A stretch of 41,132 bases of DNA, taken from IMG/VR virus record IMGVR_UViG_3300025282_000084, positions 1 to 41,132 of that record. The stretch is one strand, 5' to 3'. Made by a program: the position numbers and the translations under genes. This DNA is from a virus. This document shows positions 15,451 through 32,847 of the stretch, piece by piece. Below the pieces are notes generated by a model. That model did not search any database. It saw nothing but the letters and a program-made list of their open reading frames with translations, and was not told the DNA's origin. Position 1 is the first letter of the stretch, and each line of letters starts with the position of its first letter.

Positions 15451-16629
15451 TCACCGAAGAACTAAAACCCTCTCTTTTGTTTTGAAATATGGAGAAGACG
15501 ATCCTCCTCGATCTGTAATCCACACCCGCTGACACTTCGATGGCCCGGGCTTCGGCGCGTACATATCAGTAAGAATAATATGCCCATCAAACCCATGCTT
15601 GTTGACATAGCTTGTGGGGGCATCAAAATTAGTGCCACCGCGCAGCACCCTGTTGTGCTTTCGCTTCTCTCCTTTTTTCCAAACAAAAATCTCAGATTCA
15701 AAAACCTGATCGTCAAAAGGTATCACTACAAACTCCGCTATCTTTGCTAACTCTTCTAGTTCGGCAAAGAACGCACTCAACATTCCATCACTAACAGATC
15801 CAGATTGATCAATGCTAATAGCAATCCTCGCTTGCCTTTGAGACTTCTTCCCTGCGTGGATATAGGGGTACCTTCGGTTAATCTTCTTTATCGATGACTT
15901 CTTTGTGACCACCTGAGACGTTCTCACGAAGTATCTAAGCAACTTTCTCCAGTCAAGGGTACTGCCAGCAAGGAATTCCCTGATATGGTCTCTCACGCGA
16001 TGTGAGACGCTCCCCCACGACCCATCCTTGTCGCACTCTTGTGCCGCTTTTCGGGATATTTCCTTAAGTCTTTCTTTGGCAATCTCTTTAGTTTGTGCAT
16101 CCACCTCTCGCCAAGATTCGTGACTATCAAATTGACCTGAATCCTGCTTGGCACCATTCCCATCCCCGTCTCCATCTTTACCCTTCTCTTTTGGTTTTGA
16201 CTTCTGATCCTTCTTCAGACGCTCCAAATACCATTCAGATGCTTGGTGAAGGGGGTAATTAGCATAGTCTCCCTCTCCGGGAACGCAACACCCTTTTGGA
16301 AGTTCATCTAAAATAAATCCATTGATAGCGAGATCGGTCGCGATGTTCCATAGGGTGCTCATGCCATCGTGAGGCAGTCGTTCAGTTACGTGCTCGAATA
16401 CAAGATGATAAAATTCATGCTTCAAGACTCCAGACTTTTCTTTGTCAGTGAGACCGGCAAAATATTCAGGATTATAATATAGTTCAAAATATCCCGTATC
16501 CTTGCTTACCCCAACGCCTGCGGTTGGTACCACGTAACTCACCCTTTTGTCTACGCGCCGCGATAAGGCGGCGAAGAATGGTTCATCTTGCAGCAATCTA
16601 TAGATATGCTTGTTCAAATCAAACGACAT
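15451..16629 (-). CDS. DUF2201-type metallopeptidase/VWA-like protein
   Basis: Residues 71-75 are H-E-F-Y-H, the zinc-binding HExxH, with D99 (A-T-D-L-A-I-N) a likely third ligand. A low-complexity Lys/Gly/Asp linker follows near 140-165. The C-terminal domain is VWA-like: I-D-Q-S-G-S at 273-278 (D274, S276, S278), T333 and D355 form a MIDAS metal site. This architecture matches the DUF2201/COG3864 family of putative metal-dependent peptidases, usually paired with a MoxR AAA+ ATPase, which lies upstream at 17342-18430. A client-remodelling complex in the cytosol is inferred. Confidence 0.9.
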   Translation of the reverse strand: MSFDLNKHIYRLLQDEPFFAALSRRVDKRVSYVVPTAGVGVSKDTGYFELYYNPEYFAGLTDKEKSGVLKHEFYHLVFEHVTERLPHDGMSTLWNIATDLAINGFILDELPKGCCVPGEGDYANYPLHQASEWYLERLKKDQKSKPKEKGKDGDGDGNGAKQDSGQFDSHESWREVDAQTKEIAKERLKEISRKAAQECDKDGSWGSVSHRVRDHIREFLAGSTLDWRKLLRYFVRTSQVVTKKSSIKKINRRYPYIHAGKKSQRQARIAISIDQSGSVSDGMLSAFFAELEELAKIAEFVVIPFDDQVFESEIFVWKKGEKRKHNRVLRGGTNFDAPTSYVNKHGFDGHIILTDMYAPKPGPSKCQRVWITDRGGSSSPYFKTKERVLVLR

Positions 16630-16861
16630 TTCTTTTCTTCCTTTTCCTTTTTTCCTTGAATATTCTTATTCTCTTATCATTTGGACTTACCAAGCTTTCC
16701 TTATACCCGCGTGATCCGTCCAGCCACCAAATCTTATAATACAATTTTAAATAATGATTAATTTCATTTCCGGGTCCATAGTACCTGGAGCATACCAACC
16801 CCAGAAACCCAGTTTCAAGGTGTTCGACAAGATCACCTAACTTAAATTTATGCTGGCGCAT
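16619..16861 (-). CDS. SH3-like small protein (80 aa)
   Basis: The ATG at 16861, with a GAGAGAGTGG site, gives M-R-Q-H-K-F-K-L-G-D-L-V-E-H, then G-F-L-G-L-V and Y-K-I-W-W-L-D-G, the barrel pattern. It overlaps the genes on both sides and sits inside the MoxR-VWA block, so it may serve that module. The tail is very basic. Confidence 0.75.
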   Translation of the reverse strand: MRQHKFKLGDLVEHLETGFLGLVCSRYYGPGNEINHYLKLYYKIWWLDGSRGYKESLVSPNDKRIRIFKEKRKRKKRNVV

Positions 16862-17312
16862 CCCACTCTCTCTCGGATGCCCAATCAACATATGTCATGA
16901 TGCATTTGGCAGCACAGCTTTCATATGCTGCTTCGTCTATCTTCACGCCTAGTCCCTCAGCAAGTTCTTTACCATTCTTCCATGCTTCCATTTCCTCATC
17001 AATAACCTGAACCCTGTAGGCGTATGACTTGATCGGCTTGCCAGTGATATCTGACTTTGCTAGCAGTTGATATTTCCCATAGCGATATGCGCCATTAGAA
17101 CCAACTTCACGGTTCATGGCATGCCCAATCTCATGCAAGAGAGTGTAAAATTGGTTCTCATCAGTCTGGGATCCGTTTATGATAATTAGTCTGTCTTCCG
17201 GAAGATATCTGTCAACCTGACCTGTCGTAAAGACAACGGTAATCTGCTTCACCTCTTTCGCCCATTTCACAACCTTGCTCATGTACTTGCTATATTTACT
17301 CTTATAAGGCAT
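16848..17312 (-). CDS. HExxH zinc metallopeptidase (154 aa)
   Basis: L-L-H-E-I-G-H-A-M-N (H60, E61, H64) is the zinc-binding motif and D-E-E-M-E-A-W near residues 105-111 is a plausible third-ligand region, as in small ImmA/IrrE-like and related peptidases. The gene lies between the MoxR ATPase and the DUF2201-type gene. No signal peptide, so cytosolic. Substrate unknown; a role in cutting host regulators or maturing module proteins is inference. Confidence 0.8.
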   Translation of the reverse strand: MPYKSKYSKYMSKVVKWAKEVKQITVVFTTGQVDRYLPEDRLIIINGSQTDENQFYTLLHEIGHAMNREVGSNGAYRYGKYQLLAKSDITGKPIKSYAYRVQVIDEEMEAWKNGKELAEGLGVKIDEAAYESCAAKCIMTYVDWASEREWDAPA

Positions 17313-17341
17313 TTTTTTCAGCCATCCTTTCTCTTTGTGGT

Positions 17342-18430
17342 TTATTTATTTTCTTCTGGAATCTTCGCGACAAGTGCTACCAGGTGATCGCCAATTCTTT
17401 TTCCCTTTATTTCAGTACCATGAAACTTAAGAATATTTTCTTTCATCGATGATTTGCCCACAACAGCAAACAATTTCATCGCCATTTCGCCTGGCAACGA
17501 AACAAAGTATAGTGCTAAGTTAGTCAGTTGGTTCTCGGAAAGAAGAACGGTCTCAAAAACATTTGAAGCGTCCATTTTTTCGATCAAAGCGCCATGCTGA
17601 TTGATGTCAAACTCTGCGGTAAGATCAATCTTGCCCTCATCTAGGATGTCTTCCACCGTTACCAGTTTCTCATAGTTGGTAATAAAATCCCTAAAAGAGA
17701 TGGCGGCCTCAAACCCCACGAACCCCTGCGCCAGCGTGAAAAGAAGTAAACTATTTTTCTCCGCCAACGGTTCCTCCATTGTGGTGAGGGTGTCTGCGAG
17801 TCTCACCCAGGAACGACGGCTTGGATATACCTTTCCGGGTTCAAAATTCCCCTCAGAATGCTCCAGGTGATTTCTGTTTTGATTAATAAAGTCCCATATG
17901 GTGTGCTCCACCACATCTTTGGACCACGTAAGCCAATCCTCCACGGTTGGTTCAACATCGAAAACAGTATATCGATCTAACTCGGCGGGATCCATTTCCC
18001 CCACTTGATATTCTGATGAGTTTTCTCCGCCATTCACAGCGGCAACAACAACTGTATCCTCATGGAGAGTGTGTCCATTGATTTTTCGAGAATCAGTGAG
18101 TTCAAAAATTCCCTGTCGCACCTCTGGAGTTGCTCGATCAATCTCATCCAAGAACAACAACACCCCGCGATCACACGCTTCCTTGAACCAATCTGGCGGA
18201 TTCCACTTGGTGGAGTCACCTTCAACCGATGGCAACCCCATAAGGTCACCTTCGGTCATCTGAGACGCTCGACGCTCGATAACGCCATCTGTATAATCAA
18301 GTTCCTCCTCAATCTGATACACGATCTCAGATTTGCCGATTCCGTGCCTTCCTCTTAAGATTATAGGGTAGCGTGCATTCAAAATATGCGGCGCCGTCAA
18401 AAGAAATGTTTTAAAGTCAACTGATGCCAT
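17342..18430 (-). CDS. MoxR-type AAA+ ATPase
   Basis: Walker A G-R-H-G-I-G-K-S (27-34), Walker B L-L-F-L-D-E (91-96), sensor-1 A-V-N (131-133) and a candidate arginine finger R153 are all present, as in MoxR/RavA ATPases that partner VWA proteins. The C-terminal region is helical as in the family. AAAGGAAAAAC precedes the ATG. It leads a block with the 16848-17312 peptidase, a small SH3-like protein and the VWA/metallopeptidase. Likely drives ATP-dependent remodelling of a client. Confidence 0.9.
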   Translation of the reverse strand: MASVDFKTFLLTAPHILNARYPIILRGRHGIGKSEIVYQIEEELDYTDGVIERRASQMTEGDLMGLPSVEGDSTKWNPPDWFKEACDRGVLLFLDEIDRATPEVRQGIFELTDSRKINGHTLHEDTVVVAAVNGGENSSEYQVGEMDPAELDRYTVFDVEPTVEDWLTWSKDVVEHTIWDFINQNRNHLEHSEGNFEPGKVYPSRRSWVRLADTLTTMEEPLAEKNSLLLFTLAQGFVGFEAAISFRDFITNYEKLVTVEDILDEGKIDLTAEFDINQHGALIEKMDASNVFETVLLSENQLTNLALYFVSLPGEMAMKLFAVVGKSSMKENILKFHGTEIKGKRIGDHLVALVAKIPEENK

Positions 18431-21225: not shown

Positions 21226-23205
21226 CTAGTTTGATAACTCCGTCCCACCATCAGCACCTTCTGGCATGCAAACATTCGCAAATATATCTTGCAGCATCAT
21301 GGTGTATCTATTTCCATCGGCCGGACCAATCTCATAATACCTATCTAACTCCCCGTAGAGTATTGAATCCCAATTCCACAGGTATGTCGTCTTCGATATA
21401 ATAAATACCTCTATCTTATCTCCGGGTACACAAGATCCTATCTGACAATCGATGATATAGGGAGATATGTGTGATTGTCCTAAATTAGACCACGTTTGGG
21501 CCGCCTCATCTGTAATCATTATTATATAAGGATAGGCGTCATTTCTCCACCCTATGCCAGCAGGATCGCTTGGCAATACCAGATCATACAATGTATCATA
21601 ACTCGGCTCCATGCCTCCCCCGTCACAATCAAGAATTGCTAACCGGGCAAGAAAAGAAGTAACATCCACAAGGGGAGGAATAGTTATAACCTCATATCGT
21701 GGTTGGTACGCGCCCATTGGTGCGTGATTGGAAGGCGGAAGAACAACCAACCCAAAGCGATGCTCCGTATCTGCGAAGTCCGCAACATAAGCAGAAATCC
21801 CTTGTGCTAGTGCGTGAATATACGGGCACATAGATCCTGATATATCGATAGCAAATACCATGTCCACCTTTTCGTGAATATTTAAGTCTTCATCTATCTC
21901 GCCATCGCAGTCATTGTCCAACTCGTCACACACTTCTTCTGTTGGTCCAATCTCGCCAACACACTCTCCCCACTCGCCTTCCTCGCAGGTCGCGACGCCT
22001 GCTTTACATTCGCCGACGCCTAGAGTTTCTGAGGATTGGACGCCGCATGCCGACTCCATCATATCGATAACCCCGTCACAATCATCGTCCCAGTTGTTGC
22101 ATACCTCTTCTTCAGTTCCAAACCAAAAGCACTCTCCCCACATACCGAACTGATCACATATTTGAACGCCGACACCACAACTCATCATAGCGCCAGTGTA
22201 TTGATCTTCCATCGGATCCTCAACGCAAGATTGGGCGTCTCCTTCGATGCATGGGCACCCCTCGTCTACTTCGCCATCGCAGTCATTATCAAATCCATCA
22301 CAGTATTCAATCCCCGGCGTTGCAGCGGTGCAACCCTCCCAAGATCCATAAGAGCAGAACTCTACGCCAAATCCGCAATCTGTCTCGCACAATCGTTCCA
22401 ATCCTTCATCAACGATGCCATCACAATTATCATCTGCACTATTGCAAACTTCATTCTGTGGGTATTGAGCGTCAATGCAAAGCATTTCTCCGCTAACGCA
22501 AGTGTTATATCCGTAATAACACGCTCCCCAACTTTCGGCGGGCCCGCACGCATCCCCTTCCCCGAGAGAAAAATCATCCACAATGCCATTGCAATTGTTG
22601 TCCACGGTATCACACTGCTCTGGAGTCGGAAACACTTGCCCCTCACACCCAGTCCACGCGCCGCGTTCGCATGTAACAATGCCCGCCTTGCACGGGGAGT
22701 TTCCGCCGAAGACTGTATCTTCTCCCCCCGTCCAGCACTCAAACGGTCCTATCTCGTCTACTTCACCATCACAATCATTATCCGCGCCGTCACAAATTTC
22801 CTCGTGACCGGGATGCGCTGCTGGATTTGTATCATCACAATCTGTTTTTGGTCCCAAGCACGATTCGGGATCGTTGAACGAATCTCCGTCCTCATCGATA
22901 AACAATCCATTGTCTATCACTGCATCACAATCGTTGTCTAATCCATCACATATTTCGTCAACTGGACCTATTTGTCCTACGCAAATATCTTGATTGTTTT
23001 CGTCGCATTCTGTATGCCCAAGTCTGCATTCCCCTTTCGTGCGAGAAATATAATCTTCTCCGACTACTTCCATTCCACCGTCAGCGAAGGAAACACAAGC
23101 CTGCGTGGCAGGGCATTCAAAAAAGAGATTCCCATCGTCACAATCACAAGCGTTAAAGAATGCTAAAATGGCGAATGGTACGAACCAATATTTGCTAACT
23201 CTCAT
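21226..23205 (-). CDS. MopE-repeat and VWA-domain lipoprotein (659 aa)
   Basis: An N-terminal signal ends in a lipobox-like F-N-A-C (C20). Seven MopE-type repeats of the form C-D-G-x-D-N-D-C-D-G-x-x-D lie at about 86, 138, 198, 254, 302, 369 and 426, with a D-E-D-G-D Ca-binding loop near 104 and many paired Cys. A VWA domain follows (447-640) with MIDAS D-I-S-G-S at 454-458 and D566. MopE repeats are frequent in Myxococcota-like secreted proteins, so transfer from such a host is likely. It should be anchored outside the inner membrane as an adhesion or Ca-dependent binding protein; no enzymatic motif is visible. Confidence 0.9.
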   Translation of the reverse strand: MRVSKYWFVPFAILAFFNACDCDDGNLFFECPATQACVSFADGGMEVVGEDYISRTKGECRLGHTECDENNQDICVGQIGPVDEICDGLDNDCDAVIDNGLFIDEDGDSFNDPESCLGPKTDCDDTNPAAHPGHEEICDGADNDCDGEVDEIGPFECWTGGEDTVFGGNSPCKAGIVTCERGAWTGCEGQVFPTPEQCDTVDNNCNGIVDDFSLGEGDACGPAESWGACYYGYNTCVSGEMLCIDAQYPQNEVCNSADDNCDGIVDEGLERLCETDCGFGVEFCSYGSWEGCTAATPGIEYCDGFDNDCDGEVDEGCPCIEGDAQSCVEDPMEDQYTGAMMSCGVGVQICDQFGMWGECFWFGTEEEVCNNWDDDCDGVIDMMESACGVQSSETLGVGECKAGVATCEEGEWGECVGEIGPTEEVCDELDNDCDGEIDEDLNIHEKVDMVFAIDISGSMCPYIHALAQGISAYVADFADTEHRFGLVVLPPSNHAPMGAYQPRYEVITIPPLVDVTSFLARLAILDCDGGGMEPSYDTLYDLVLPSDPAGIGWRNDAYPYIIMITDEAAQTWSNLGQSHISPYIIDCQIGSCVPGDKIEVFIISKTTYLWNWDSILYGELDRYYEIGPADGNRYTMMLQDIFANVCMPEGADGGTELSN

Positions 23206-23591: not shown

Positions 23592-24017
23592 CTAATTTAT
23601 AGCAATAGATGTCGCCCTAGATTCCTCCGTGGGAGGAATGCGTATCCTGAGTAACCCATTCTCAAACGAAGCGCTTGACTGCCTCATATCGAGTTGGTGA
23701 TCGTAATCAACAAACGATCTCGTAAAAGATCTGCGAGCGATTCTTCGGGAATTCTTATCTCCCTCCGAAATAGATTCACAAAAGATCGCAATCGAGTTAT
23801 TTTTAACCTCGATGTTCAAATCTTCTTTAGTGAACCCTGCTAGTGCTATCTCGATGACTTGATTATCCTCATCATCTTTGTAGAGATCCGTTAGAGGATA
23901 TCCCTCCGTTGATCGCCTTACCATCGTAAATGGATCGCTAAATACTTGATCAAAAAACTGATCAAAGGTATTTCTCCCCACGATTGAGGGAATTGTTTTT
24001 ATCATTGCGTTAGTCAT
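23592..24017 (-). CDS. Small heat-shock protein, Hsp20/alpha-crystallin family
   Basis: The core has Y-P-x-T-D-L, V-I-E-I-A-L-A-G-F-x-K-E-D-L-N-I-E-V and the C-terminal A-S-F-E-N-G-L-L-R-I-R-I-P, the alpha-crystallin signature. At 141 residues it is a typical holdase and would keep unfolded proteins soluble in the infected cytosol. AAAGGAG precedes the ATG, a promoter lies at 24083-24111 and a terminator follows, so it is an independent unit. Phage Hsp20 genes are known in cyanophages and others. Confidence 0.93.
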   Translation of the reverse strand: MTNAMIKTIPSIVGRNTFDQFFDQVFSDPFTMVRRSTEGYPLTDLYKDDEDNQVIEIALAGFTKEDLNIEVKNNSIAIFCESISEGDKNSRRIARRSFTRSFVDYDHQLDMRQSSASFENGLLRIRIPPTEESRATSIAIN

Positions 24018-24112: not shown

Positions 24113-24187
24113 TGGTGGACCCGGTAGGATTTGAACCTACGGCCAACCCGTTATGAGCGGGTCGCTCTACCACTGAGCTACAAGTCC
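24113..24187 (-). tRNA. tRNA with CAU anticodon (Ile2 or Met)
   Basis: A 75-base cloverleaf with encoded CCA: acceptor stem GGACTTG/CGGGTCC, D-arm with GCTC/GAGC, anticodon stem ACCCG/CGGGT around loop CTCATAA, T-arm GTAGG-TTCAAAT-CCTAC. The CAU anticodon could be elongator Met or, after lysidine modification, Ile(AUA). The TTGGCC variable region resembles bacterial Ile2 more than Met, but identity is not certain. Confidence 0.9.
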
Positions 24188-24214: not shown

Positions 24215-24247
24215 CATAAGAGGGGGGGGGCATGCCCCCCTCTTATG
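24215..24247 (-). other. G/C-tract hairpin between the GHKL gene and tRNA
   Basis: A 13-bp perfect stem (CATAAGAGGGGGG against CCCCCCTCTTATG) with a seven-base loop begins right after the stop of the 24248-26155 gene. On the minus strand no U tract follows directly; six T occur 28 bases later, just before the tRNA. It may terminate, stabilise the mRNA end or mark tRNA processing. Confidence 0.55.
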
Positions 24248-26155
24248 TTATTTCTTTTTCTTACTCTTCCTGGGGAAGACTATTTCTTTCTCATTCATCA
24301 GCTTCATCGATATATAATTGCATACGAACGGATCGAAGGTTTCATAGGTTATTACACGGATTTTTCTTTTCGCCCCCATTAATGCAACAATGGAGTCTAT
24401 CTTTCCCTGTAAACCGGATTCCACAGTTTCCGAAACAAAAGTAAAATCGTGTTTGTTTTCTTCTATGATGGGAATCCCGTATCTCAGAAATTGGTCGATG
24501 GTGCCGCCCCAATCCAGGTGTCCCGTCTTTAGTTCCACATATCCCCGAGTAGGGTGGAGGGCATCTACCGAAGGTGTGCCGCCATCACCCCAAAGTAGGT
24601 GCTTGCCATTAACACTGGCGCCCGGTTGAACTTCAAAGCTCCACTTATCCCCATCCTGCATTTTCCGCACGCACTCTTGAAACGCCGGATGCACATCCTT
24701 AACTTCATCCACAGTCACCTCTTTATTTGAGCGGACTGATTTGACGTGCTTGACATATTCATTTTCTGAGGCGTCTTCGCCAAAAGTTTCCAATACCCTA
24801 TTGATGATATCCGCAGGTATTGGACTCCCTAACTCAATCTTGTGACCGCAGGTGGGGAAGTGAGTGCTGCCTTTGGTAGTTCTCACGTCAAGATATTGGA
24901 CTGCCCGGTTGAGGCGATACAATTGAGCGGGATCCTCCTCGCGAAGATCTGCGAGCAAATCTATGTCCTTTCTAGAGAAGATATTTTCGTGAGCGATCAC
25001 AAAACCATTGACCATTATCGGAAGAAGATACGACTTTCGATGTATTTTTCCGCCTCTTAGAAGATCGTTGATTGTGTTAAACACTTTCGCATTTTCTTCC
25101 CACTGTTTTTCCAGCATCGCGCAATCTAGCTTTTTCTCTTTTGCCAGCTCTGTGGTCCTAGATAAGTCTGCCGCAAGAGACTCTCCATAAATAAGACGCG
25201 CCCTGGCGCCGGAATCATCGATTTTAACAAACGGTCCACATTTATATGCGCCCAGTTTTCGTGATGACGACGGTGGTTGTCCTATCTCATACGCGGCCGG
25301 ATTCTGCGGATCTCTCACGGGATATACGCCCGCGCCTTCTTTGTGGGCGTCGATAGTTCCCTCGCAATAAATCTGTTCACCATCCAAATAAACAGTTCCC
25401 CGAAATTCAATAGACTCAATCGGATCCCATCCATAGCTCTCTGCGGCGGCGCTTGTCGCACCCAAGAACTCATCATAGAAAGGAGTATTAGAGCAAACGC
25501 TCTGCAAGAGTTTGTTCATCGCACTCTTCACCGAAGTCTTAAATTTTTTAGTCTCAGTTTTGTCCTCTAATGTGAACTCCGGTAAATATGGGTCTTTCCA
25601 CCAGTAAGTTAGACCCTGAAGGGGTTGTGGTGCACCACTGCCGCACAATTGAGAGAGGTGCTGTTCTGCCTCCTCTTTATCCATTGTTGCCGTAGGCGTC
25701 CAACGATCATCCCCGGCCGGATTGGTCCAATAATCGGTCACAAAAACATTTGCACTGTTTCTGTCTGGAGCAAGAATGGTCGCAAAGTGACACTTTTCTG
25801 ACAATTTCTCCAGTTTTGACTTGATGAACTGAGCATATATATAAGAGGTACCCTTCCCGTGCTCATGCATGAGTTCGATTTGGGGTGCTCCCACTTTTCC
25901 CATGCTTTCCAGTCTGTCAAGCCCTGCGCGTCCAGGGACGCCTCCGACGTTATCTGACAGTTTTAGAGCGATCACCGAAGCTTGTCCGGTGACGGGATCG
26001 GTGATCAAAAAGAGATCAAAGTCCAAAACAGGAGCAGGAATCCCGTATTCGTGCGCCGCATCGATGACGTTTGCCCACGCCTCCTTTATGGCGCTTAGGG
26101 TGGTCCCCCCGGCAACCCTAGATCTTAATGACTTGTTTGTTAGGTTTTTCTTCAC
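24248..26155 (-). CDS. GHKL ATPase fused to a PD-(D/E)XK-like domain
   Basis: The N-terminus carries the GHKL ATP site: E25-A-W-A-N29-x2-D32-A (N box), D68-N-V-G-G-V (G1-like) and H99-G-K-G-T-S (G2-like), as in Hsp90, MutL and MORC ATPases. The C-terminal region has D531, then E541-L-K543 after ten residues, fitting a PD-(D/E)XK nuclease core. A middle domain of about 350 residues is unassigned. The start is GTG with GAGGAAC. ATP-dependent DNA cleavage or anti-host function is inference; I know of no named family. Confidence 0.7.
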   Translation of the reverse strand: MKKNLTNKSLRSRVAGGTTLSAIKEAWANVIDAAHEYGIPAPVLDFDLFLITDPVTGQASVIALKLSDNVGGVPGRAGLDRLESMGKVGAPQIELMHEHGKGTSYIYAQFIKSKLEKLSEKCHFATILAPDRNSANVFVTDYWTNPAGDDRWTPTATMDKEEAEQHLSQLCGSGAPQPLQGLTYWWKDPYLPEFTLEDKTETKKFKTSVKSAMNKLLQSVCSNTPFYDEFLGATSAAAESYGWDPIESIEFRGTVYLDGEQIYCEGTIDAHKEGAGVYPVRDPQNPAAYEIGQPPSSSRKLGAYKCGPFVKIDDSGARARLIYGESLAADLSRTTELAKEKKLDCAMLEKQWEENAKVFNTINDLLRGGKIHRKSYLLPIMVNGFVIAHENIFSRKDIDLLADLREEDPAQLYRLNRAVQYLDVRTTKGSTHFPTCGHKIELGSPIPADIINRVLETFGEDASENEYVKHVKSVRSNKEVTVDEVKDVHPAFQECVRKMQDGDKWSFEVQPGASVNGKHLLWGDGGTPSVDALHPTRGYVELKTGHLDWGGTIDQFLRYGIPIIEENKHDFTFVSETVESGLQGKIDSIVALMGAKRKIRVITYETFDPFVCNYISMKLMNEKEIVFPRKSKKKK

Positions 26156-26192: not shown

Positions 26193-26221
26193 ATTATAGC
26201 AGATCACTTTTAATCTGTCAA
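26193..26221 (-). promoter_or_regulatory. Consensus promoter for the GHKL gene
   Basis: AGAAATAGC then TTGACA at 26216-26221, a 17-base spacer ending AGTGATCTGC, and TATAAT at 26193-26198, followed by another TGTGATCTG. The 15-base string ending in TTGACA is shared with the dnaE promoter at 41061-41089. Confidence 0.9.
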
Positions 26222-26246: not shown

Positions 26247-26636
26247 CTATTGAACTACGGAGCCTTCGGACCAGAACCTTTTATTCTTGCGTTCGTCTGT
26301 TATCACCAGAACTTCAATAGCATCAGGAATAATCTTGTGTTTGTAATATTCCAAATATCCATATAGCGAATTAGGTTGCTTCTTGTGAAACTTTTTCCTT
26401 GGTGGTGGCAGATTTAAATGCGCCAGGCAACCTTCCACTACCTCTTTCTCTGAAAGTCCCCCATCAAGATATTTCTGAAAGTCCCCTTTCAGATATCCTC
26501 CGACAACCCATCTTTTGGTGCCAAACCCTTTAACATCCCAAAACATTGATCCGTGGTATCTGCCATCTTTCTTTTCGTCTTTGGCGGATCCAAATCCGTA
26601 TTCATCAATTGGTTTCCAACTGCATGCGATTTCCAT
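26247..26636 (-). CDS. Unknown protein (129 aa)
   Basis: A Gly/Trp/Lys-rich mixed alpha/beta protein starting after GAAGTGAGGATGT, a ribosome site very like that of the MopE gene. No motif recognised. It is the last gene before the promoter at 26193-26221. Confidence 0.65.
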   Translation of the reverse strand: MEIACSWKPIDEYGFGSAKDEKKDGRYHGSMFWDVKGFGTKRWVVGGYLKGDFQKYLDGGLSEKEVVEGCLAHLNLPPPRKKFHKKQPNSLYGYLEYYKHKIIPDAIEVLVITDERKNKRFWSEGSVVQ

Positions 26637-29706: not shown

Positions 29707-30645
29707 TTATTCTCCGCGATTAGTAGGGTAGGGATTATTATACAGCTTTGGATTCTTTTGTTTAAAAATTTGTTTTAGCTTTTTTGTCTCTTTTTTGCTT
29801 GTGCCGAGAATATAAACATACTTGTGTTTTGAAACCACTTCTCGGACCTGACAACTTTCCCTGTACGCCTTTTCCCTTTCCTTAATTTTTTCCTTGATGC
29901 TTGAAGTCGAACATATTGCTATACCTGAAGGCATCTTATCCCAGTCAGGACTATATTTCTTCATCCATTTTGACCACTGATCTTTGCTAATGCCTATCTC
30001 TGCGGCATAGCGATAATACTTTGACTTCTTTCTAAACTCTCTTCCGCTAAACCATCCTTGCTTCTTGTTGTTGGGATCAAAGTATTGCCTCGTTACTCCC
30101 GCACCTTTGCCTAGGTAAAAGAAATTACACGCTTGATACAGCGTCCCTAACTCTTTCGCCTCCGGATCAGAGTACGCTGTGAAGTATCTGAACGCGGTAT
30201 TTTGAACCGTCCAGCGGATGGATTTCATTATCAGCCATGATCCAAGATTCTTGGGTGACCAACTAATACAAGCGCCGCGAGATATCAACTTCTCAAGATC
30301 GCTATTCTCCCTACCAAGCAGATGGGAGAACGTATTCGGAACTGCCATAATGATTACACCTGCGAGGATGTTCCCTTCCTTGAGGCGAGCAGTGAATCGT
30401 TGGGTTGGGCGATTAGGAAGTTTACCAAGCCACTCGTGCTTCTTTATGAAGTCACGAACCTCTTCGCACTTCTCCTTTTCCGTCTTGTCAACATATTCAA
30501 AGGAAAAATCTTTTGTGGACAATTCTTTGTAATCAACCCAAGGAGGGAGATCTTCCAAATCTTCCCTAAGATTATCTTCCCTTATTTGATACTGCCAGCA
30601 ATGATCTTTATCGTAGTCTTTCCATCTCTCGTGTGGATCTGACAT
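29707..30645 (-). CDS. Mom-like GNAT acyltransferase
   Basis: The core (about 65-180) contains R-F-T-A-R-L, L-A-G-V-I-I-M-A-V-P-N, S-R-G-A-C-I-S-W-S-P-K-N and Y-S-D-P-E-A-K-E-L-G-T-L-Y-Q-A-C-N-F-F-Y-L-G, the pattern of the Mu Mom family of GNAT-fold proteins, which modify adenine in phage DNA to block restriction. The C-terminal 110 residues are basic. Start at 30645 has GGAGGAATA, the same site as groEL downstream; they form one operon. Modification of phage DNA is inferred from family. Confidence 0.75.
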   Translation of the reverse strand: MSDPHERWKDYDKDHCWQYQIREDNLREDLEDLPPWVDYKELSTKDFSFEYVDKTEKEKCEEVRDFIKKHEWLGKLPNRPTQRFTARLKEGNILAGVIIMAVPNTFSHLLGRENSDLEKLISRGACISWSPKNLGSWLIMKSIRWTVQNTAFRYFTAYSDPEAKELGTLYQACNFFYLGKGAGVTRQYFDPNNKKQGWFSGREFRKKSKYYRYAAEIGISKDQWSKWMKKYSPDWDKMPSGIAICSTSSIKEKIKEREKAYRESCQVREVVSKHKYVYILGTSKKETKKLKQIFKQKNPKLYNNPYPTNRGE

Positions 30646-30676
30646 TATTCCTCCGATCAATAAAATGATCTGTTCT

Positions 30677-30711: not shown

Positions 30712-32847
30712 TTATGAGTATGGTTCAATTTTAAATTTGGAAGCGGTTTCTTCTGCCATTCCCTCTATCTTGTAACTAAAGTTGGCCAACCTATTGATAA
30801 ACTGTAATTTCAAATAAACTGGTTCAAGGGTTTGAGTCTTCTCGCCCATCCTCGCTCCCGTCATCATAGAGGCGTAAAAAGCATTATAGTTTGGTTCTGA
30901 ACCATCCAACATCTTGGTGCTGCTCTTGCCAACCTGAATTTCCATGAGAGGATATTTATCAAATTTCCCCATTTCGATATCCTTTTTCGAAGATTCCTTG
31001 TATTGTTCTACAGTCTTTGGTCCCCATACCCCGTCGCCAGTTCCATAAGCGATGAATAGAGGGAGTTTGGTGTTGCCAAATTTCGCATCAGCAATGGTGT
31101 CAACAGAGGTTTGAACCAGGGCGGATCTCGCCTCTTCGGCAGTCTTGCTGCTATTTAAGATTTGTTGGAGCATCTGATTGAGAGTCTGGAAGGAGGCGAA
31201 ATTGGTGCATAGTTTTACGCAGTTTGCCAAAAGAGTTTTTTCTATAACTCTTTCCATCCTGGGTCTTCCTTTCGCGGGTTCATCATAATCAGGTTCTGCC
31301 ACCTTGGAGGCGCCCTTCATGTATTCTAGCAAAGCTTTGGCAGATTCCTGAAAAGCTTTGATGTTATCCTCCGAAAATTCAGAGTTTCCATCTATAAATC
31401 TAACCAGATCTGATCCGTCTGACAACCCATTGATGGCATCAATCTTTTCAATCATCATCTTTCTTTCTTTTTCAAACTGACCCTTGTTTTTTGGCGACAA
31501 CATATTCCCGCTCAATGTCTGCACTTGTCTGTAAAGTTCTACCGTGATCTGTGTTCTTTCTCCCTCGCTTAAGTTCTCCGCTCCCTCCATTGATTGCAAG
31601 AGATGAAAAAGTTTATCACCCGCCTCATTCATTTCAGTGCCGCCCGCTTCTGTGGCGGCGGACTGTCCCGCACCCCAAACCTTCTTGGCGAGTCCAGAAA
31701 TGAATTCTTTTACTTTTTCATAGACTGATTTGACAACTCCCAATCCCCTTTTGGCGAAGTCAGCGAGCGCACCTTCATTGAGTCCCTCTGCGATTTCTTG
31801 GTCATAGTACATAGCTCCGGACGCCATTAACTCTTTCTCTGATAGTTTCCACCAGTTATCACCGTGGGTTTCTCGCATCCACGCGCCCAACTGATCTGCG
31901 TTCGCCGACAGTTTGTCCTGCTTTTCAATGGCGCCTGCTGCATAAGCGATTGCTGCAATAAAAATAGCCAGCGCTGCGTCCTGCTCCCCCATGCGCCCCA
32001 ACGACATATCTAATCCTGCCGTCTGCATAAGATCCTGTGGCGATACCGACAATTGTCCCAGGTAATCATTGAATGTCCTAGAAAGTTTGCCGATTCTGGC
32101 GCCTTTCTTAGATTTCTTAAGCGAAACCTGTATAAATTCTATGTCTCCCCCCACCGTAACAACACCCGTCTTTTCGTTAGCTTCCACGGATTTGTTTTCT
32201 GCAAGTGCCGCCAAGAGATCGCCTCTAGTGCCCTTGGTGACAATAACCATGTCTGCCGTGTTCGGTTTTATATCTTTTCTTTCTGATTTTGTAAAATTAA
32301 GTTTTTCGGCATCACTGTGGTTGGCAATGGCCGAATAGTAATCCCCAATGCTGGCGTTGATCAAACTCAACCCAGTGCCCCAGTTTTTGACAGGAGGAAG
32401 TTTCTTGATGTCGCCGCCTACCCACTGGATAAAGGCGGGCAAAGAGGCGGCCGCCTCCCCGTTTTCGTCATTCAAAACTTTCTGCATCCATGCGGCGCCT
32501 TTGGGGATCATATCCACACTTTCGTGTTCGTTAGTCAGCGCGATGATCTCCTCTGTAGTTGGAAGGGTTCGGTCGCCATCCAGTTTTGCCACAATAAGGG
32601 CGCAAGTCTCATAAACAGTAGCACCAGCAGTTCCGGCGGGAGGTTTATGTCCTAGTGCAGTAAGATTTGCCTCCGCTTCGGGACCACCCAAAGATGAGGC
32701 GCCCTCCTTCAGAATCCCCAAGGAATACTCTATCTCTTTATCAATAAACTCTAATACTGGATGCTTCTTTGCATTAACGCTTTTCTTTGGATTTATGCCT
32801 AACTCTCTATCAATGAACTCTGATAATATTTGGGCGCCATCTTTCAT
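30712..32847 (-). CDS. Large unknown phage protein (711 aa)
   Basis: The first 50 residues hold two related helical segments (I-L-S-E-F-I-D-R-E-L-G at 7 and V-L-E-F-I-D-K-E-I-E at 31), followed by a helical body. Around D199 and I239-Q-V-S-L-K244 there is a beta-strand pair with a D ... Q-x-S-x-K arrangement that loosely recalls a PD-(D/E)XK-type core, a low-confidence idea. Large size, repeats and Ala/Gly-rich helices also fit an internal virion protein. AAAAGGAA precedes the ATG. I do not recognise the family. Confidence 0.75.
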   Translation of the reverse strand: MKDGAQILSEFIDRELGINPKKSVNAKKHPVLEFIDKEIEYSLGILKEGASSLGGPEAEANLTALGHKPPAGTAGATVYETCALIVAKLDGDRTLPTTEEIIALTNEHESVDMIPKGAAWMQKVLNDENGEAAASLPAFIQWVGGDIKKLPPVKNWGTGLSLINASIGDYYSAIANHSDAEKLNFTKSERKDIKPNTADMVIVTKGTRGDLLAALAENKSVEANEKTGVVTVGGDIEFIQVSLKKSKKGARIGKLSRTFNDYLGQLSVSPQDLMQTAGLDMSLGRMGEQDAALAIFIAAIAYAAGAIEKQDKLSANADQLGAWMRETHGDNWWKLSEKELMASGAMYYDQEIAEGLNEGALADFAKRGLGVVKSVYEKVKEFISGLAKKVWGAGQSAATEAGGTEMNEAGDKLFHLLQSMEGAENLSEGERTQITVELYRQVQTLSGNMLSPKNKGQFEKERKMMIEKIDAINGLSDGSDLVRFIDGNSEFSEDNIKAFQESAKALLEYMKGASKVAEPDYDEPAKGRPRMERVIEKTLLANCVKLCTNFASFQTLNQMLQQILNSSKTAEEARSALVQTSVDTIADAKFGNTKLPLFIAYGTGDGVWGPKTVEQYKESSKKDIEMGKFDKYPLMEIQVGKSSTKMLDGSEPNYNAFYASMMTGARMGEKTQTLEPVYLKLQFINRLANFSYKIEGMAEETASKFKIEPYS

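Follow-up and report, generated by a model that had tools for sequence, protein, structure and literature searches.

Only recently were nucleases gated by a GHKL ATPase confirmed to serve bacteria as weapons against phages. VcSduA, a GHKL-type Shedu protein (type I-D), is a single-gene system that consists of an N-terminal GHKL domain, a clamp-like middle region, and a C-terminal PD-(D/E)xK domain; either of the exchanges E27A or K557A abolishes its anti-phage activity (PMC12137116). The bacterial paraMORC3 proteins likewise join a GHKL domain to a C-terminal RE-fold domain with E-D-ExK motifs; they contain an S5 domain, and some of their genes stand alone (Iyer et al. 2008, PMC2292703). These two cases bear out the suggestion of a preliminary description of the locus studied here, namely that the combination of GHKL domain and nuclease occurs in defence proteins. 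In phages, the rIIA orthologues consist of an N-terminal GHKL domain and a highly variable C-terminal domain and are considered counter-defence proteins (PMC7824862).

The window, i. e. the whole stretch of DNA that was analysed, comes from IMG/VR, where it forms a virus record 41,132 bases long. Its minus strand encodes at positions 24248..26155 a fusion of a GHKL-like ATPase and a PD-(D/E)XK-like nuclease, which comprises 635 residues and starts with GTG. We assign a probability of about 0.45 to the reading that this gene belongs to the accessory cargo of a lineage of marine phages and that its product is a conflict nuclease which is gated by ATP and works like VcSduA. Both proteins have the same layout, and the distance between the critical residues (E27 to K557 in VcSduA, E25 to K543 here) is in both cases about 520-530 residues, which is an agreement at the level of motifs; note that this comparison is one of layout and motif spacing only. 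Differences from VcSduA are that the protein is phage-borne, that a valine replaces the first glycine of its G1 motif, and that SduA_C is not matched. As the Shedu domain SduA_C/DUF4263 (PF14082) gave no match in the protein, membership in Shedu is not claimed, and judged by its sequence the protein appears to belong to no known family. The paraMORC3 proteins differ in being bacterial and in having an S5 domain, whereas the protein considered here is without a detectable family match and an S5 domain was not demonstrated.

The sole relative in IMG/VR is a protein encoded in record IMGVR_UViG_3300024261_000026 (G001; locus L104), which is 64% identical over the full length, begins at the same start position, and is free of stops. 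The frame proposed in the preliminary description is therefore intact, with 635 open codons and a full-length homologue. The residues named there were likewise found in place (E25, N29, D68, G72, G100, G102, D531, E541, K543), and E25, N29, G72, the G2 glycines, D531, E541, and K543 are kept in G001; one deviation had been missed, which is the valine at the first glycine of the canonical G1 motif DxGxG (DNVGG). Searches with the protein gave no match in Pfam, PHROG, NCBIfam, PADLOC, and PDB, none in genome scans, and none by tblastn against phages and plasmids. Scans of viral contigs with the single sequence, the alignment, sub-alignments, and two motif patterns identified no relative besides G001; the two pattern scans, which used motif spacing, were independent of each other, covered the entire viral collection, and each had G001 as the only full-size relative. 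In addition, backbone relatives were fetched by means of the neighbouring pol and GroEL genes, which gave 102 loci of related marine phages; among nearly all records of these loci, only G001 contains a homologue. These findings indicate that the family is very small in the collections searched; two members are known.

The core of the GHKL half (25838..26107, minus strand) consists of the N-box E25-x3-N29, the G1 motif D68-N-V-G-G72, a lid-like GKVGA, and the G2 motif G100-x-G102. Its motif runs are identical in both members; fully identical are S21-V30, S67-V73, and E98-I106. Both residues that define a GHKL N-box are thus invariant, as is the G2 stretch HGKGTSYI with its glycines, and G1 retains in both proteins the aspartate and the second glycine next to the valine. 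Asp32 of the N-box is an alanine in the G001 homologue. A profile built from both sequences over residues 1-206 brought N-box, G1, lid, and G2 in or near register with E. coli HtpG, GKVGA corresponding to the Hsp90 motif AKSGT. Comparison of an eight-sequence Hsp90-type profile with the two-member profile yielded a score of 31.2 (pairwise P 0.0013) for an alignment that covers residues 21-92 and has the N-box, G1, and the AKSGT lid motif in register. Shuffling the columns 500 times never gave as high a score (maximum 25.4), and among 44 windows from other real two-sequence gene pairs of these phages no score exceeded 21.5; in a separate set, one of 150 shuffles reached 32.4 and thus exceeded the value of the Hsp90 profile. 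Similarity to the N-terminal domain of Hsp90/HtpG is about 27-29% identity and confined to the core, and Hsp90 differs from the protein by the nuclease located here at the C-terminus. The MORC motif GhXhhpXXRhl, searched for as a regular expression, is absent from both proteins. AlphaFold2 runs on the two-sequence alignment gave a pLDDT of 31.4 for the full length and of 35.6 for residues 1-190, and Foldseek found no significant match for the low-pLDDT model of residues 1-190. Because these pLDDT values are too low to demonstrate a GHKL fold, we infer it, like the PD-(D/E)XK fold, from motif and profile. Of the proposal that the N-terminal half is a GHKL ATPase, motif, conservation, and the in-register alignment with the Hsp90 profile stand; structure prediction added no support.

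Profiles of rIIA, MutL, and GyrB compared with the N-terminal half did not score above shuffles, which bears on a reading of the gene as an rIIA-like counter-defence factor. Such a protein, with an N-terminal GHKL domain and a variable C-terminal domain, would shield the phage from abortive defence of the host and would not cut foreign DNA. The published layout of the phage-borne rIIA orthologues fits (PMC7824862), but the rIIA profile scored 16.0, which is within the shuffles (mean 14.3), a tblastn search did not reveal any annotated homologue in phages, and the reading leaves a conserved nuclease core unexplained that sets the protein apart from rIIA. We therefore regard it as distinctly unlikely.

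This nuclease core was identified by conservation and a pattern scan (24476..24640, minus strand) and consists of E508, D531-x9-E541-L-K543-x-G, and Q555-x3-Y559. D531, E541, K543, Q555, and Y559 are invariant in both members, giving the D-x(n)-ExK arrangement, and residues 531-583 form the most conserved window of 53 residues (81% identical). The window contains a single match to a wobble-coded nuclease pattern, where zero matches are expected. A scan of 2.9 million viral contigs for the spacing of the nuclease motif identified 49 stretches, most of which belong to small proteins of 110-240 aa that are PD-(D/E)XK-like. Four of these were looked up; two have subthreshold matches to PDDEXK_3, Cas4, or DpnII-MboI, and one has a subthreshold match to a RusA-like resolvase family. 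The D-ExK spacing is thus in use among proteins that resemble nucleases. The similarity of the nuclease region to small PD-(D/E)XK proteins was no higher than that of motif-keeping shuffles, and the PD-(D/E)XK half has no match in Pfam. The earlier assignment to PD-(D/E)XK is thus backed by the motif, the most conserved window, and the scan of the collection; a profile or fold match did not join them. For both halves together, regular expressions composed after inspection of the sequence were applied to 20,000 shuffles of the protein: a relaxed GHKL expression occurred in 3 and the motif D-x(6-20)-hE-h-K-x-G in 84 of them, and no shuffle contained both. The middle region, which resembles a transducer or linker (residues about 201-480; 24717..25555, minus strand), is 62% identical between the members; a family search of this region gave no match and no recognised domain.

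The surroundings of the gene reveal how it came to its position. Its upstream neighbour is a conserved gene of 129 aa with no assigned function (26247..26636, minus strand), downstream follow a tRNA-Met (CAT; 24113..24187, minus strand) and Hsp20 (23592..24017, minus strand). In four relatives lacking the gene (L078, L079, L080, L091), the 129-aa gene is followed by tRNA-Met and then by Hsp20 or a MopE-type gene. In one of these (L079), the stretch that separates the 129-aa gene from the tRNA contains the promoter context ACATTGAGAAATAGCTTGACAGATTA..., which likewise precedes the GHKL gene in the window and in G001. Since this promoter directly precedes tRNA-Met in relatives without the gene, the GHKL gene sits between tRNA-Met and its promoter. 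The promoter itself (26193..26221, minus strand) is present as had been described, with TTGACA-17-TATAAT matching the sigma-70 consensus in 12/12 positions and an extended -10. It is not the gene's own, however, but the ancestral promoter of tRNA-Met captured by the inserted gene. The expectation of high early expression, which was derived from an own strong promoter, is consequently not supported, all the more as the phage has many promoters of this kind: 11 sites of the window agree with the consensus in at least 11 of 12 bases, and they all lie on one strand. Immediately past the stop codon lies a GC-rich palindrome (24215..24247) that has a T-rich tail in the plus direction only; as this tail faces the opposite direction, read-through into the tRNA is possible. 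Several consensus promoters, those at 26221, 41089, 12706, and 19475 (minus strand), have in common an element resembling GTGATCTG or GATCT within the spacer or behind it, which is possibly the site of a phage regulator.

Known homing enzymes include some of the PD-(D/E)XK type as well as phage enzymes linked to tRNA genes, and a free-standing homing endonuclease could in principle have created the locus. It would cut the empty tRNA-Met loci of co-infecting phages, the GHKL part would serve as a regulator, and conflict would be a by-product of spread. Free-standing phage homing endonucleases beside tRNA genes likewise show single-gene insertion at the tRNA and gene exchange, and here a clean insertion of one gene beside a phage tRNA is found at the same site in both carriers, near relatives have empty sites, and the exchange is recent relative to the backbone. 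Homing endonucleases are, however, usually small and without ATPase domains, ordinary recombination accounts for the same pattern of exchange, and recognition of the site is putative, which makes this an unlikely explanation. Less probable still is a combination of both functions, in which an ATP-gated GHKL nuclease acts as a phage mobile element that inserts between tRNA and promoter and excludes or converts co-infecting phages with an empty site, being homing enzyme and anti-competitor weapon in one.

A comparison of substitution rates between the window and G001 separates the history of the gene from that of the backbone. At fourfold-degenerate sites, identity is 0.70 in the GHKL-nuclease gene and 0.45 in pol, 0.45 in GroEL, and 0.28 in MopE; the sites of the backbone genes are near saturation. 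Correspondingly, dS is 0.64 in the GHKL-nuclease gene versus about 1.8-2.1 in pol and GroEL. The difference between 0.70 and about 0.45 indicates that the gene has been exchanged between the backbones since their split. Its dN/dS value of 0.44 (0.04 in pol/GroEL) shows that the protein is under purifying selection, though fast-evolving at the protein level. This combination is as expected for exchanged conflict cargo. Positive selection in the nuclease domain, which fourfold sites had led us to suspect, was ruled out by a dN/dS of 0.57 for residues 531-635. The rates also bear on a role of the protein as the phage's own nuclease for DNA repair or recombination. The logic of MutL, which is that of a GHKL domain plus nuclease, and the phage's own Pol III alpha would suit this role; the gene is, however, accessory and missing from near relatives whose replication genes are the same, and it was exchanged and evolves faster than those genes. 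We consider such a function improbable.

If the preferred reading of an ATP-gated conflict nuclease is right, binding of ATP would, by analogy, close dimerised N-terminal domains, the middle region would clamp either DNA or some partner by which foreign DNA is marked, and clamping would license the C-terminal nuclease to cut. The target might be DNA of a competitor phage, of a plasmid, or of the host, as proposed for VcSduA. Dimer gating, the DNA substrate, and the function in conflict are deduced here from this analogy. A phage-borne version from an orphan family, exchanged between backbones, would show that phages turn the architecture on competitors or hosts, and it would give a small single-gene system for studying how a GHKL ATPase switches a nuclease.

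The window further encodes Pol III alpha, GroEL, Hsp20, a MoxR ATPase, and a DUF2201-type metallopeptidase-vWA protein, features which have been reported for large (jumbo) phages (PMC7824862). The pair of MoxR ATPase and metallopeptidase-vWA protein (15451-18430, minus strand) resembles that of group 2.2 jumbo phages (PMC7824862). At 21226-23205 (minus strand), a protein of 659 aa has seven metal-binding repeats of the MopE type, together with a weak vWA-like match; in one relative (L102), the homologous gene is inverted relative to its neighbours.

A Mom-like DNA modification gene (29707-30660, minus strand), 45% identical to that of Vibrio phage 501E54-1, is missing from most near relatives. 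Together with this gene, the GHKL-nuclease might form a split restriction-modification pair based on momylation, of which it would be the nuclease half, as both occur in the window and in G001 and neither in L102 and other near relatives. This co-occurrence is based on one pair of close relatives, though, and L051 and Vibrio phage 501E54-1 possess Mom without the GHKL-nuclease gene. Moreover, fourfold sites of Mom are near-saturated (0.50), unlike those of the GHKL-nuclease gene (0.70), which indicates different histories. A joint system is thus highly improbable.

A polymorphic locus lies at 30712-32847 (minus strand), between the homologue of 33183/33892 and GroEL. In the window it encodes a protein of 711 aa, whereas L102, L078-L083, L091, and L092 have different large ORFs of 336-486 aa instead, which share a leader-like N-terminal stretch (LLLEFIDEEM / ILSEFIDREL). 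A segment of the 711-aa protein, ADMVIV...EFIQVSLKK, resembles a nuclease core. With a fourfold identity of 0.91 between the window and G001, the 711-aa gene was also recently exchanged.
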